Source of the DNA: an uncultured Microbacterium sp. | GTDB lineage: Bacteria; Actinomycetota; Actinomycetes; Actinomycetales; Microbacteriaceae | DNA length: 64,000 nt | Reading direction: 5' to 3' | NCBI GenBank assembly: GCA_913774845.1 | Contig: CAJYJO010000002.1 | Coordinates: forward strand, 32,345-96,344 | Shown here: positions 3,932 through 42,901 of the stretch, piece by piece | Numbering within the stretch: position 1 is the stretch's first letter | Layout: the number at the start of each line of letters is the position of its first letter | Notes under the pieces: generated by a model | Told to the model about the DNA's origin: nothing | Databases searched by the model: none | The model's input: only the letters and a program-made list of their open reading frames with translations | Position numbers and translations under genes: made by a program

Positions 3932-4389
3932 GTGCAGGGCAACCGGGGCGGCGGGCGGCTGCGCGGCGGGCGATTGGGTGGTGCCGAATTCCGGTGCTTC
4001 GGGCCGTGCGCGCGGGGCGGCCGGGCGCCACGGGGATGGCCGGTTTGGGCGGTGCCGAACTCCGGAGATGTGCGGCTGTTAGGGGCTTCAGGGGCGCTGT
4101 GTCGCCCGAAGGCAGCGGTTTCTCCGGAGTTCGGCGAGCCGCGGCGGAGGCGGGTCGCCGCACGCGGGGCGCAGAAGCAGCGGGGCGGGGCAGCAGCACT
4201 CAGGAGTTTCGGCGAGCGGCGTCGCCGGCCGAGCGCGGCGGGGCGTCCCGCGCTCCGGTGATCTCGGCGTTCCAGCGGAGCACCAGCAGGTCGACGAGAC
4301 CCCGGCGTGCGTGTTCTCCGGAGCCCGGCACACGCGGTGAGCTCAGCCCGGCTGCGGCGGCGGTACCCGGGAGAGCGGCAGCCCCCGGC
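3932..4389. other. gene-free interval with nested inverted repeats
   Basis: No credible gene in 458 bp. An outer inverted repeat pairs 3917-3935 (TCGCCGAACTCCTGAGTGC) with 4197-4216, and an inner 86-bp element lies at 4052-4137. A further half-copy GTGCCGAATTCCGG starts at 3981. The interval separates the 3' end of kdpE from the convergent small ORF, so some hairpins may act as terminators. Confidence 0.65.
4052..4137. repeat. 86-bp palindromic element, copy 1
   Basis: Left end GTGCCGAACTCCGGA and right end TCCGGAGTTCGGCGA are inverted repeats around a divergent 56-bp core. The total length, 86 bp, is identical to the copies at 12914, 28594, 37186 and 42816. The last two bases of this right end differ from the GGCAC of the other copies. 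Confidence 0.8.
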
Positions 4390-12913: not shown

Positions 12914-12999
12914 GTGCCGGGCTCCGGAGCGCTCGGCCTCCTTCGCGCGAAGGAGAGCCCGTTCGCGCGTTGCGGCGCGTTCCGTCCGGAGCGCGGCAC
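12914..12999. repeat. 86-bp palindromic element, copy 2
   Basis: Ends GTGCCGGGCTCCGGA and TCCGGAGCGCGGCAC are inverted repeats. The element lies in the 269-bp divergent interval between the kdp operon and arfB, so it separates two outward promoters rather than acting as a 3' terminator. Confidence 0.85.
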
Positions 13000-13032: not shown

Positions 13033-13470
13033 ATGCGCGCAACCGCCGGCCCCGACGTCCGGGTCACGGCCGCGCTCGTGATCCCGGCGGCGGAGCTGTC
13101 GTGGCGGTTCTCGCGCTCCTCGGGCCCGGGCGGTCAGGGCGTGAACACCGCCGACTCCCGCGTGGAGCTGATGTGGGATGCCGCGGCCTCGACCGCTCTG
13201 TCACGGGTGCAACGCGAACGCGTGCTCGAGCGGCTGGGCGACCGTCTGGTCGACGGGGTGCTGACGATCGCGGCATCCGAGCACCGCGCGCAGCTGCGCA
13301 ACCGCGACGCCGCACGGGCTCGTCTCGCCGCGCTGGTGGCCGAGGCCGTGCGCCCGCCCGCCACGCCGCGCCGCGCGACCAAGCCGACCCGGGGGTCGAC
13401 CGAGCGTCGCCTGCAGGCCAAGCAGCGCCGCACCGACGTGAAGAAGATGCGTCGACGCCCGACCGACTGA
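13033..13470 (+). CDS. arfB: ArfB-like peptidyl-tRNA hydrolase (ribosome rescue)
   Basis: A 145-aa protein with the release-factor catalytic motif GGQ in SSGPGGQGVN near residue 30 and a basic C-terminal tail (RRLQAKQRRTDVKKMRRR) that in this family enters the mRNA channel of stalled ribosomes. It lacks codon-recognition domains, as expected for ArfB/YaeJ, which frees nascent peptides from non-stop ribosomes. The ATG at 13033 has GGAG only 2 nt away, so the exact start is uncertain by a few codons. A perfect hairpin follows the stop. Confidence 0.87.
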   Translation: MRATAGPDVRVTAALVIPAAELSWRFSRSSGPGGQGVNTADSRVELMWDAAASTALSRVQRERVLERLGDRLVDGVLTIAASEHRAQLRNRDAARARLAALVAEAVRPPATPRRATKPTRGSTERRLQAKQRRTDVKKMRRRPTD

Positions 13471-28456: not shown

Positions 28457-28765
28457 GGCATCCGTTCTGGGGGAGGTGCAGGAAGGACAACAGCGTCGGC
28501 CGTCGGGCATTCCGCGGATAGCCGACGTGTTGCGGAGCCGGGCGCCGGTGTGTCGCCGATCTCTGGAGATCCGGGCACGCGCACCGCGGCCGTGTGCCGA
28601 ACTCCGGAAAAACCTCCGGCGCAGGCGGCGCGGGGGCCCGTTCGCGGCCTTCTGCCCCGGTTTCTCCGGAGCGCGGCACGCCCGTCCGGTCCGCGCGGGG
28701 ACCGAGCCACCGGACCGACGTGCCCGACAGGTCGGTGAGCCCGGCGGAGCGACCGGAACTCGCGA
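28457..28765. other. gene-free interval with an 86-bp element
   Basis: About 310 bp between the M20 peptidase stop and the GNAT start, both on the minus strand. It contains the 86-bp palindromic element at 28594-28679 and weaker related GC-rich half repeats around 28530-28575. No gene is supported. Confidence 0.65.
28594..28679. repeat. 86-bp palindromic element, copy 3
   Basis: Ends GTGCCGAACTCCGGA and TCCGGAGCGCGGCAC; the core shares fragments such as GCCCGTTCGCG with copy 2 and a final GGTTTC with copy 1. Confidence 0.87.
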
Positions 28766-35556: not shown

Positions 35557-37323
35557 ATGACGTCCACTCCGCTCACCGGCCCCCACGATCTCGTGGAGGC
35601 CGCCGGCCACCCCCACGGGGGCGGCAACATGAAGCCCCACTACGACGACCGTCTCGCCAACGAAGACCTCGCACCGCTGCGGAAGCAGAAGTGGTCGAGC
35701 TACAACATCTTCGCGTTCTGGATGAGCGACGTGCACTCGGTCGGCGGCTACGTCACCGCGGGTTCGCTCTTCGCCCTCGGCCTGCAGTCGTGGCAGGTGC
35801 TCGTGGCGCTGATCGCGGGCATCGTGATCGTGCAGGTCTTCGCGAACATGGTCGCCAAGCCCAGCCAGAAGACGGGTGTCCCCTACCCGGTGATCAACCG
35901 CGTCGTCTTCGGCATCCGGGGCGCGAACATCCCCGCGATCATCCGCGGCCTCATCGCGATCGCCTGGTACGGCGTGCAGACGTTCCTCGCCGCCGAGTCG
36001 CTGAACATCGTCTTCCTGAAGTTCATCCCGGGGTCGGCCGCCCTGCTCGACGTGTCATTCGCGGGGCTGTCGGCGCTCGGCTGGATCTCGTACGCGATCC
36101 TGTGGACCGCGCAGTTCCTGCTGTTCTGGAACGGCATGGAGGTCATCCGCCGCTTCATCGACTGGGCGGGCCCCGCGGTGTACCTCGTCATGATCGTGCT
36201 CGCGGTGTACCTGGTGTCTCAGGCCGGCATCCAGAACATCTCGTTCACCCTGTCGACGACCCAGCTCGACTTCTGGGCGTCGATCCCCGTGATGTTCGGC
36301 GCGATCGCGCTGGTCGTGTCGTACTTCTCGGGCCCGATGCTGAACTTCGGCGACTTCGCCCGCTACGGCAAGAGCTTCGCCGCGGTGAAGAAGGGCAACT
36401 TCTGGGGACTTCCGATCAACTTCCTCTTCTTCTCGCTCCTCACGGTCATCACCGCGTCGGCCACCGTGCCGGTGTTCGGCTCGCTCATCACCGACCCGAT
36501 CAAGACGGTCGAGCAGATCGACACACCTTTCGCGATCCTGCTCGGCGGCCTGACCTTCGTCACGGCCACGGTCGGCATCAACATCGTCGCGAACTTCATC
36601 TCGCCCGCGTTCGACTTCTCCAACGTCGCGCCGAAGAAGATCTCGTGGCGCGCGGGCGGAATGATCGCCGCGGTCGGCTCCACGTTCCTCATGCCGTGGA
36701 ACTGGTACTCCAACAGCGATGCGATCCACTACTCGCTCGGCGTGCTCGGTGCGCTGATCGGGCCCCTCTTCGGCATCCTGATCGCGGGCTACTACATCTC
36801 GGCCCGCCAGCGCGTGAAGGTCGACGCGATGTTCACGATGGATGCCAAGGGCCCCTACTGGTACCGCAACGGCTTCAACCCGAACGCGGTCAAGGCCGTC
36901 ATCGTGGCCGGGGTCCCGACGGTGGCGATCGCCGTCTTCCCGAAGCTGTTCGCCGATCTGGGACTCTTCAACGTCTCGTGGATCAGCGACTACAGCTGGT
37001 TCATCGGCTGCGGTCTCGGCTACGTCCTGTTCCTCCTCTTCGAGCGTCTCGACCCCCGCGTCCCGACCTTCGACGGTGAGACCGAGGGCATCTCCGACGG
37101 CACGGTGGATGCCGTGGAGACCCGCGCCGAGACCGAGGCCGAGGCGCTGGTGCTGGCGCAGACGGCTCAGGATGCCGGGGGTGCGGTCCCGGGCTCCGGA
37201 ACCTCGGCGCAGGTTCCTGCCGAGGCGCTCGCGCGGGCAGCGCAGGATGCCGTTGTTCCGGAGCGCGGGACAGCGATGCCTGGGCGCCCGACCGTCGCCG
37301 GCCCGCGCGAGGCGCTCGCGTGA
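35557..37323 (+). CDS. NCS1-family nucleobase/allantoin transporter
   Basis: A 588-aa membrane protein with about twelve helices, NCS1 fold. Signature segments: WSSYNIFAFWMSDVHSVGGY, GVPYPVINRVVFGIRGAN, and DFARYGKS. NCS1 porters take up allantoin, uracil, hydantoin or purines with protons or sodium; the neighbours make allantoin or another purine intermediate most likely. GAGAGGA seven nt upstream fixes ATG 35557. The last ~75 residues are an Ala/Glu-rich cytoplasmic tail that contains a translated 86-bp palindromic element (37186-37271). Confidence 0.9.
   Translation: MTSTPLTGPHDLVEAAGHPHGGGNMKPHYDDRLANEDLAPLRKQKWSSYNIFAFWMSDVHSVGGYVTAGSLFALGLQSWQVLVALIAGIVIVQVFANMVAKPSQKTGVPYPVINRVVFGIRGANIPAIIRGLIAIAWYGVQTFLAAESLNIVFLKFIPGSAALLDVSFAGLSALGWISYAILWTAQFLLFWNGMEVIRRFIDWAGPAVYLVMIVLAVYLVSQAGIQNISFTLSTTQLDFWASIPVMFGAIALVVSYFSGPMLNFGDFARYGKSFAAVKKGNFWGLPINFLFFSLLTVITASATVPVFGSLITDPIKTVEQIDTPFAILLGGLTFVTATVGINIVANFISPAFDFSNVAPKKISWRAGGMIAAVGSTFLMPWNWYSNSDAIHYSLGVLGALIGPLFGILIAGYYISARQRVKVDAMFTMDAKGPYWYRNGFNPNAVKAVIVAGVPTVAIAVFPKLFADLGLFNVSWISDYSWFIGCGLGYVLFLLFERLDPRVPTFDGETEGISDGTVDAVETRAETEAEALVLAQTAQDAGGAVPGSGTSAQVPAEALARAAQDAVVPERGTAMPGRPTVAGPREALA
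37186..37271. repeat. 86-bp palindromic element, copy 5, inside the NCS1 gene
   Basis: Ends GTCCCGGGCTCCGGA and TCCGGAGCGCGGGAC. Both arms are changed together relative to the others (GTGCC/GGCAC becomes GTCCC/GGGAC), a compensatory difference. It is read through in frame, giving VPGSGTSAQVPAEAL ... VVPERGT. Confidence 0.85.
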
Positions 37324-40990: not shown

Positions 40991-41163
40991 GTCCCGTTCT
41001 CGCCGCCGCCCTGGCCCGGGCCGAGGCCGCGGGCCCGCCGTTGAGGCTTGGCGCCCCTGAGCTGGCTCCTTCCCGTCGAGTGTCCACAACACGCGGACAA
41101 TTCCTTCGGCTCTCCGGGTTTCTTGGACACTCGACGCAGCGCAGAGGCGGGCGACGCTCGTGA
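40987..41163 (+). CDS. 58-aa coupled ORF in the HpxX/AtzG position
   Basis: Overlaps the acetamidase stop (ATGA) and the next amidase start (GTGA). The first ~28 residues (MSPVLAAALARAEAAGPPLR...) form an amphipathic-looking Ala-rich helix; the rest is the translation of palindromic repeat A copy 3. In Klebsiella the corresponding slot holds HpxX, a ~60-aa partner of the amidase HpxY. Homology is not demonstrable by eye. It may be a degraded partner gene, a spacer, or a small subunit. Confidence 0.35.
   Translation: MSPVLAAALARAEAAGPPLRLGAPELAPSRRVSTTRGQFLRLSGFLGHSTQRRGGRRS
41075..41135. repeat. palindromic repeat A, copy 3
   Basis: Arms GTCGAGTGTCCACAACACGC and CCGGGTTTCTTGGACACTCG. Unlike copies 1 and 2 it lies within an operon, inside the short coupled ORF. 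Confidence 0.82.
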
Positions 41164-42803
41164 CGGATGCCATGACCCCGCCGACCGCGACCTCCGGGCC
41201 GGTGGCCGCCGATGCAGGCCCCACGGCGGCCGCACCCGCGCCGATCCCCGCCGACCTCCGCGCCGCGTTCGACGCCTACGAGCGGGCCATCGTCGCGAAC
41301 GACCTCGACGCCCTCGACGCGTTCTTCGCGCCGGGCCCCGACACCCTGCGCGGTGACCCGGCGGGTCTGCTCGTCGGACACGACGCCATCAGCGGCTTCC
41401 GCTCGCTGCGCGGCGGCGTCGCGGCGCGCGAGATCGTCGAGGTGCAGTACCGCCCCCTCGGGCCCGACACCGCCCTGCTCATGTCGGTCTCGCGCTTCCA
41501 CGGCGGCGGGCGCGGCCTGCAGACGCAGGTGTGGCAGCGGCTCGACGGGCGGTGGCTCATCACGGCCGCCCACGTCGCTCCGCGCACGCCCCCGCTCGAC
41601 CGGTCCATCTGGCGCAGCGTCGGCGACCCGTTCCTGCAGGGCGCGTGGGAGGGGGCGCTCGCCGGCCTGACCGTCGCCGTCAAAGACGTCTTCGCGATCG
41701 CCGGTTTCCGCATCGGCGCGGGCAATCCGACCTACCTCGAGCAGGCCCGGCCCGAGAAGGCCACGGCACCCGCCGTCGCCGACCTGCTGCGTGCGGGGGC
41801 TTCGCTGCGTGGCATCGCCCGCACCGACGAGTTCGCGTACTCGATCGCCGGAGACAACGTGCACTACGGCACTCCTCCGAACGGTGCGGTGGTCGGGGCG
41901 CTCCCCGGCGGGTCGTCGAGCGGTCCGGCTTCGGCCGTCGCCCTCGGCCACGCCGACATCGGGCTCGCGACCGACACCGCCGGTTCCATCCGCGTGCCCG
42001 CGTCGTACCAGGGCCTGTGGGGACTGCGCACGACCCACGACCTCGTGCCGCGGCAGGGCATGCTGCCGCTCGCGCAGTCCTTCGACACGATCGGCTGGCT
42101 CACCCGCGACGGCGAGACCCTGCAGCGCGTCGCCGACTGGTGCCTGAGCTACGACGGCTCCGCCTCGACCGAGAACGTCTACGGCGCATCCGGCGACGAG
42201 CTGCCCTGGCGGTTCCTCGTGCCGGAGGAGATCCTCGACTGCGTCGAGCCGGCGACCCGCGCGGCGTTCTCCCGGCTCCTCGCCGGCCTCGCGGCATCCG
42301 ACGACCCGCCGCCCTTCCGCGCCGTGCACACGGGAGACCTGGATGCCGCCTTCGCGGCGTTCCGCACGGTGCAGGGCGCAGAGGCCTGGCGCAACAACGG
42401 GGAGTGGCTGCGCGCGCATCCCGGGGCCGTGGGTCCCGCGGTGGCCGAGCGCTTCGCCGTCGCTTCGCGGCTCACGCCCGCCGACGAAGCCTCCGCGCGA
42501 AAGGGGCTCGAGAGCATCGCCGCGCACCTCGCCGACCTGGTCGACGATGCGGTGCTGCTCTTCCCCACCGTGCCGGGCCCCGCCCCCCAGCGCACCGCCG
42601 ACGTCGACGCCGTGCGCGCCGCGACCCTGCGCATGACCGCGCCCGCCGCGATCGCGGGGTTGCCCGCGGTATCGGTGCCGTTGCTCCGCGTCGACGGCGC
42701 CCCCGTCGGTGTGTGTCTCGTCTCGCGCGCCGGTACCGACATCGCCCTCGTGCGTCTGGCCCGTCGTCTCGCCGAGCTGGCCGGTGCGGGGGTCGGCCGA
42801 TGA
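41160..42803 (+). CDS. AtzH/HpxZ-like domain fused to amidase (HpxY/AtzE-like)
   Basis: A 547-aa fusion. Residues about 20-145 form a DUF3225/AtzH-like NTF2-fold domain (FDAYERAIVANDLDALDAFF, ending ITAAHV). Residues about 160-545 form an amidase-signature hydrolase: catalytic lysine in VAVKDVF, GGSSSGPASAVALG with the cis-serine and DTAGSIRVPA with the nucleophile. In Klebsiella purine degradation HpxZ and HpxY are separate proteins encoded together, and AtzH/AtzE are their counterparts in cyanurate breakdown. Placement between allantoinase and PucG suggests action on oxalurate or a related carbamoyl compound. GTG start overlaps the preceding frame. Confidence 0.88.
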   Translation: MTDAMTPPTATSGPVAADAGPTAAAPAPIPADLRAAFDAYERAIVANDLDALDAFFAPGPDTLRGDPAGLLVGHDAISGFRSLRGGVAAREIVEVQYRPLGPDTALLMSVSRFHGGGRGLQTQVWQRLDGRWLITAAHVAPRTPPLDRSIWRSVGDPFLQGAWEGALAGLTVAVKDVFAIAGFRIGAGNPTYLEQARPEKATAPAVADLLRAGASLRGIARTDEFAYSIAGDNVHYGTPPNGAVVGALPGGSSSGPASAVALGHADIGLATDTAGSIRVPASYQGLWGLRTTHDLVPRQGMLPLAQSFDTIGWLTRDGETLQRVADWCLSYDGSASTENVYGASGDELPWRFLVPEEILDCVEPATRAAFSRLLAGLAASDDPPPFRAVHTGDLDAAFAAFRTVQGAEAWRNNGEWLRAHPGAVGPAVAERFAVASRLTPADEASARKGLESIAAHLADLVDDAVLLFPTVPGPAPQRTADVDAVRAATLRMTAPAAIAGLPAVSVPLLRVDGAPVGVCLVSRAGTDIALVRLARRLAELAGAGVGR

Positions 42804-42815
42804 CCCTCGCGGTGT

Positions 42816-42901
42816 GTGCCGCACTCCGGAGAGAGCGCCGCCACCCGCGGATTTTCGCCGCTCGACAGACGCGAAGTGCCCGGAACTCCGGAGCCCGGCA
42901 C
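42816..42901. repeat. 86-bp palindromic element, copy 4
   Basis: Ends GTGCCGCACTCCGGA and TCCGGAGCCCGGCAC. It sits between the amidase and pucG genes in an otherwise tightly packed operon, with 48 nt left before the pucG start. Confidence 0.86.

Follow-up and report, generated by a model that had tools for sequence, protein, structure and literature searches.

The 86-bp element at positions 28594-28679 of the window (the whole stretch of 64,000 nucleotides analysed here, from an uncultured Microbacterium sp.) belongs to a family in which two inverted boxes are separated by distances quantised to the helical turn, around a core whose sequence is not conserved. Judged on its sequence, such an element is probably, though by no means surely, a bipartite docking site, at which a sequence-specific DNA-binding protein would occupy both boxes and bend the DNA between them. 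The two boxes would lie on the same face of the helix, about five, six or seven turns apart, where one protein complex could grip both simultaneously. This protein would bend, loop or wrap the intervening DNA, and would have co-evolved with the lineage-specific variants of the boxes. Because the protein holds the two boxes and bends the core, the element would keep its length but not its core sequence; in the best-sampled sets it would also keep the phase of the A+T-rich steps. The combination of quantised spacing, phased A+T and unconserved core is accounted for neither by a hairpin nor by a recent MITE. No description of these elements was found in the literature, and no paper was found that contains both CTCCGGAG and Microbacterium. 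A quantised spacing combined with a phased core can be read from sequence alone, and offers a testable signature of a complex between protein and DNA.

Paired boxes at quantised distances

The original prediction had placed five elements of exactly 86 bp in the window, and all five were confirmed when their ends were read again. At 28594-28679, between two minus-strand genes, the left arm GTGCCGAACTCCGGA (28594-28608, plus strand) and the right arm (28665-28679, GTGCCGCGCTCCGGA on the minus strand) both fit the motif with 0 mismatches and enclose an unconserved core of 56 bp (28609-28664); the elements and this core are assigned no strand. The copy at 4052-4137, whose right end has 2 mismatches, shares a convergent intergenic gap with a sixth element, of 87 bp, at 4245-4331, which starts 193 bp past the start of its neighbor and has 2 mismatches in its left end. 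The third copy (12914-12999) lies in a divergent gap, upstream of an ArfB-like gene (13033-13470), and that at 42816-42901 has an amidase gene on one side and an aminotransferase gene on the other. The remaining one (37186-37271) is located within the 3' coding end of an NCS1-type permease ORF (35557-37323). Genes were called with a simple codon model made for this analysis. A single box is no commoner in the window than chance predicts (79 matches with at most 3 mismatches, for 85 expected), and no parS site was detected there at up to 2 mismatches.

Two side observations concern the same loci. The C-terminal tail of the permease (window 37000-37323) is made of degenerate repeats, in places AQDA..PVPGSG, and the element sits inside this repeat-made tail in several species (also loci L079, L308 and L310). 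The amidase gene (41160-42803) is preceded, at 41072-41138, by paired inverted GAGTGTCCAAGACAC-like boxes that are present as well at several orthologous loci and are probably an operator of a purine/allantoin-type operon.

The source genome assembly (3.37 Mb in 55 contigs) contains 21 CTCCGGA...TCCGGAG pairs when 55-85 bp are allowed: 16 of 70 bp, one each of 69, 71 and 81 bp, and two of 82 bp. The reversed pattern, used as a control over the same range, gave 0 pairs. With the full motif at exact spacing and up to 3 mismatches, 17 places were found, against 0 for the control. A random spacing of end pairs had been named beforehand as the result that would speak against a unit; the pairs lie instead at fixed spacing, and the controls are empty. 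The same regularity is found in relatives. In the three cleanest genomes (the source, G071 and G090), all 74 listed pairs measure 69-71 bp (64 pairs) or 80-82 bp (10 pairs), and in seven further genomes, searched over 67-84 bp, 61 of 62 pairs fall into these classes, the exception being a 73-bp pair in G095; both sets of lengths were counted by hand.

Other boxes obey the same rule. Elements of the type AACTCCKGC...GCMGGAGTT, found in relatives (G053, G009 and G055), measure 61-65 bp from AACTCC to GGAGTT, with a mode at 63, and thus form a class one helical turn shorter. A third box type, AACTCCTGAG, is spaced at 73-74 bp in G092, and the source-genome type measures 74 bp on this AACTCC-to-GGAGTT scale; the source genome has 7 matches per strand to AACTCCTG...GGAGTT. 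Among the matches listed for other box types, which come from four of seven genomes, all measure 61-65 or 73-75 bp, within a searched range of 52-82 bp. The resulting distances between box centers, about 51, 62 and 73-74 bp, are near 5, 6 and 7 helical turns, with steps of 11-12 bp, a little above 10.5. Low-copy genomes also contain pairs of other lengths (55-78 bp), which probably arise by chance. Nine 62-bp matches in G001 come from a minisatellite, an 18-bp tandem repeat containing CTCCGGAG (contig C5, 3243501-3243724), and were left out of the counts. At locus L036 (4066-4163), an element of 98 bp corresponds to 86 bp in two relatives (L055 1391 and L127 243) with matching flanks, in an alignment not clean enough to prove a change of one turn.

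The boxes themselves are roughly 16-20 bp long, with a core, CTCCGGAG, that is palindromic in itself, and their sequences differ among lineages. Their consensus contains neither a GTAG- nor a CGTC-type REP-foot tag, the tag types given in the available part of PMC3733652. Several neighboring motifs were noted. An inverted pair, ACAACGAAGGAAATC...GATTTCCTTCGTTGTG, of 90 bp adjoins an AACTCCKGC element in G055 (locus L138, 1319-1408) and is perhaps another box type. In G124, which belongs to another genus, a third CTCCGGA-type box is found near the middle of the elements together with a conserved CGGCGTGTCG (loci L293-L298), and the GACACGCC word of G239 resembles this CGGCGTGTCG.

Arms, core and A+T rhythm

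It had also been claimed, from the copy with ends GTCCC/GGGAC, that the two ends change together. This is true of that copy (37186-37271) and does not extend to a general rule, since at motif position 3, where the joint change was noticed, the arms match in a proportion of 0.72, for 0.72 expected. Covariation clearly exceeds expectation only at positions 7-8 (NN) and, in the 86-mers, at position 13: the match at position 8 is 0.80 for 0.49 expected in the 86-mers and 0.71 for 0.57 in the 87-mers, and that at position 13 is 0.97 for 0.87. The covariation at positions 7-8 and 13 in the M. testaceum group is evidence against a full independence of the arms, and at positions 7-8 it could also stem from a hairpin or from concerted change. 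In G071 the outer arm bases are GTTC or GCAC; of 21 elements, 7 carry GTTC in both arms, 8 combine one GTTC with one GCAC, and 6 show other combinations. The arms of this genome match at the two TT/CA positions in a proportion of 0.43, for 0.50-0.51 expected with arms varying alone.

These observations bear on the reading of the inverted ends as an RNA hairpin, acting as a terminator or as a stabilizer of 3' ends. The ends do pair in predicted folds, and many elements are located in convergent or co-directional gaps, as such a hairpin would be. Against it speak the outer arm bases of G071, which vary independently, and the core, whose complementarity across the dyad is not above expectation (0.337 for 0.342 expected, and 0.325 for 0.341). 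At gathering scores, Rfam covariance models had no match anywhere in the window. Furthermore, the loop of a hairpin requires neither a quantised length nor a phasing of A+T. An RNA hairpin is therefore very improbable, the least probable of the explanations considered.

The core, from position 21 to the center, is low in information in 71 elements of 86 bp and 48 elements of 87 bp. What it does contain is an oscillation of its A+T content, with a period of 10.3 bp and an amplitude of 0.069 in the 86-bp set (shuffle maximum 0.023), and a period of 10.5 bp and an amplitude of 0.062 in the 87-bp set (shuffle maximum 0.024). This rhythm is in register with the boxes and runs through the center of the element, the AT dinucleotide step peaking around positions 7, 17-18, 28 and 38 and at their mirror images. 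After a stricter trimming, the 86-bp set, the 87-bp set and G071 all beat 1000 of 1000 shuffles; in the 15 elements of G071 the trimmed amplitude is 0.133, for a shuffle maximum of 0.053. The trimmed rhythm of the other sets was reached by 17 (G053), 58 (G009/G055) and 53 (G092) of 1000 shuffles and is nominal only. It was reached by 0 of 1000 in G124, where the cores share a conserved sequence, so that this genome is not a clean replicate. An earlier result, in which the rhythm exceeded all 300 shuffles in five other sets, did not survive the trimming of the AT-rich bases adjacent to the boxes, and confidence in the docking-site explanation was lowered because a rhythm in all sets failed in this way. 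The A+T rhythm is firm in two lineages, the M. testaceum-group set and G071, and elsewhere weak, no more than suggestive. The phases of 238 half-cores, in which orthologues and tandem copies were not thinned, agree with a resultant of 0.53. Outside the ends, a clear bump is observed at 13-15 bp and the rhythm of the first 40 bp reaches 0.017, for 0.013 in shuffles; from 16 bp outward it is not significant (0.008, shuffle maximum 0.012).

A rhythm of this kind could also be produced by strong sites for DNA gyrase, comparable to BIME-2, in which the phased A+T would mark DNA wrapped by gyrase near the 3' ends of genes. The rhythm extends over the whole 86 bp and at least about 15 bp into either flank, and convergent gaps are preferred to divergent ones, as would be expected of such sites. 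Gyrase is conserved between lineages, whereas the boxes vary by lineage, and it is not known to need boxes this specific. In the part of PMC6379681 available to us, the E. coli gyrase motif is described as symmetric, 130 bp long, with a GC periodicity of 10.75 bp in two flanking regions, and gyrase is reported to cleave within BIME-2. According to the same text, this motif is periodic only beside a central part of 36 bp, whereas the present rhythm crosses the center. Gyrase sites are a very improbable explanation.

Orthologous sites, mobility and genomic location

The genus Microbacterium contains at least one pair of 55-85 bp in 68 of 99 genomes, from 0 to 38 per genome, some of them by chance. 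A scan of named genomes with the exact box pattern gave 81 stretches (80 of them used), from genomes labelled Microbacterium (M. testaceum, M. enclense and M. hydrothermale among them) or, in the case of one MAG, labelled only Actinomycetota. Under a stricter pair pattern, 7 of 150 family genomes, from 6 of 85 genera, gave matches: 13 pairs in the source genome, 27 in G124, 6 in G239, 3 in G127, and one each in G112, G194 and G204. A search for viral carriage returned 0 exact matches for two patterns.

The proposal that the elements are moved or maintained as a unit has to be divided. Maintenance is borne out by the fixed length, the conserved ends and the orthologous copies of several species. 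In flank-matched pairs, core similarity ranges from near identity to background while the arms are almost constant: 18 ortholog pairs show 9 mismatches over 468 arm positions and 257 over 796 core positions, a contrast that overstates the constraint on the arms, as the pairs were picked by hand, several at one site, from loci found by the box pattern. A flank search at the 37186 site found both boxes in the source genome and in 3 of the 20 relatives reached. At the 42816 site, the 30 best-matching loci (the source included, some of them unplaceable) hold boxes of the source type, the AACTCCTGAG type or the AACTCCKGC type, other inverted pairs, or none. Box types at both sites were assigned by eye. 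Because orthologous gaps hold varied box types or none, and because flank-matched cores diverge, the family is, as far as these sequences tell, an old one, patchily gained or lost in lineage-specific variants. An invertible core was also considered and rejected, as flank-matched cores align better in the orientation of their flanks, except for five pairs near background both ways.

Movement, in the manner of a MITE or a REP, did not find the same support. Core identity averages 0.335 over the same-length pairs among 126 elements. Core identities of at least 0.62 within one genome are limited to tandem neighbors, so that no dispersed copies with a shared core were found within any genome; the remaining pairs at this level link different genomes, with flanks that match in most cases though not in every one. 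Target duplications, which had been proposed as a mark of insertion, were sought as direct repeats of at least 4 bp immediately adjacent to the ends, a test which takes the 86-bp ends to be the real ones. They were seen in 0 of 25 source-genome elements and in 1 of 122 in all, for 1.9 expected from swapped flanks, and repeats of 2-3 bp are at expectation. No RAYT-type Y1 transposase (Y1_Tnp, PF01797) was detected in the source genome, and only one of 99 genus genomes (G041) has one. A scan for a MITE partner with the same ends showed unpaired arms in the examined stretches of the source genome. A recent MITE-like spread is not supported by these results; a mobile origin, slow or ancient, is possible.

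The main rival belongs here, as a transposase synapsing its own short ends would also fit the geometry. The elements would then be slow replicative elements of the REPIN kind, served by a transposase other than RAYT, with the boxes as their ends; the short core would bend for the synapsis of the ends in cis, which would quantise its length too, and copies would persist vertically while their cores drift. In form they are similar to the GI REPIN of P. fluorescens SBW25, as depicted in the available part of PMC3116915. Their copy number varies within the genus, and the 42816 gap of the source genome, once the element is removed (59 bp), is similar to the gap of 55 bp in G070. The lack of a Y1 transposase, of dispersed copies sharing a core, of target duplications and of a hairpin beyond chance in the core all count against this explanation, which we regard as unlikely, albeit a serious competitor.

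The position of the elements on the chromosome bears on the docking-site explanation. Gaps with elements comprise 30 convergent, 9 divergent and 40 co-directional ones, against 46, 83 and 126 for gaps without them, which amounts to a depletion in divergent gaps (convergent versus divergent, p = 7e-6). The half of the chromosome around the origin, defined relative to dnaA, holds 63 of 84 loci in eight genomes (p = 5e-6). This bias is strong in G071 and G001, nominal in G095 and G008 (4 loci each) and not significant in G007, G090, G070 and G069, four genomes which rule it out as a universal rule. Thirteen genomes have dnaA, and eight of these were used, one contig of each being treated as a circle (C5 for G001; the stated completeness of G090 is 68 percent). 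Loci less than 20 kb apart were counted as one. Of 26 G001 matches 22 were listed, and the nine 62-bp minisatellite matches and the 73-bp match of G095 were dropped. The idea of a regulon was rejected, as 33 scanned proteins, some of them not direct neighbors, have no common function; GDPD, SseB-like and class V aminotransferase proteins recur, twice each. Because divergent gaps are depleted and the tested neighboring genes lack a common function, a role in genome architecture (nucleoid organization, segregation or local supercoiling) seems likelier than promoter control, speculative as this is. More tentatively still, Microbacteriaceae might possess an undescribed class of dispersed docking sites, quantised by helical turns and with lineage-specific boxes, served by a co-evolving looping or wrapping protein that organizes the nucleoid; we regard this wider proposal as possible, short of probable. 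Identification of the protein would reveal a further architectural DNA-binding system in a group of Actinobacteria.

Comparison with known systems

The closest formal parallel is with REPINs. In the available part of PMC3116915, the GI REPIN of P. fluorescens SBW25 is an inverted pair of 16-mers with 71 bp between their first residues and a total length of 87 bp; the distances are perfectly conserved and the spacer is less so. REPINs thus share with the present elements conserved inverted ends at an exact distance, a variable spacer, a mostly intergenic location, tandem clusters and, for the GI type, a length of about 87 bp. The present elements differ by the absence of a RAYT in the source genome, a core without hairpin, a phased A+T content in the best-sampled sets and length steps of about one turn. 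This comparison raises the question of whether REPIN spacers are phased elsewhere, and whether some repeats described as hairpins are bent, double-stranded docking sites.

The BIME-2 gyrase sites of E. coli are likewise intergenic and, as far as the available part of PMC6379681 describes the gyrase motif, have a similar AT/GC rhythm; specific boxes varying by lineage and a rhythm across the center set the present elements apart. With MITEs they share a short length and inverted ends, and differ by the lack of common cores and of target duplications; no partner transposase was found in a limited search. The sites of SlmA, Noc and MatP are dispersed structural sites, palindromic and present in tens of copies. 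The present elements resemble them in both properties and, in some species, in a bias toward the origin; this bias is not universal here, and the present boxes, unlike those sites, are paired at a fixed phase.
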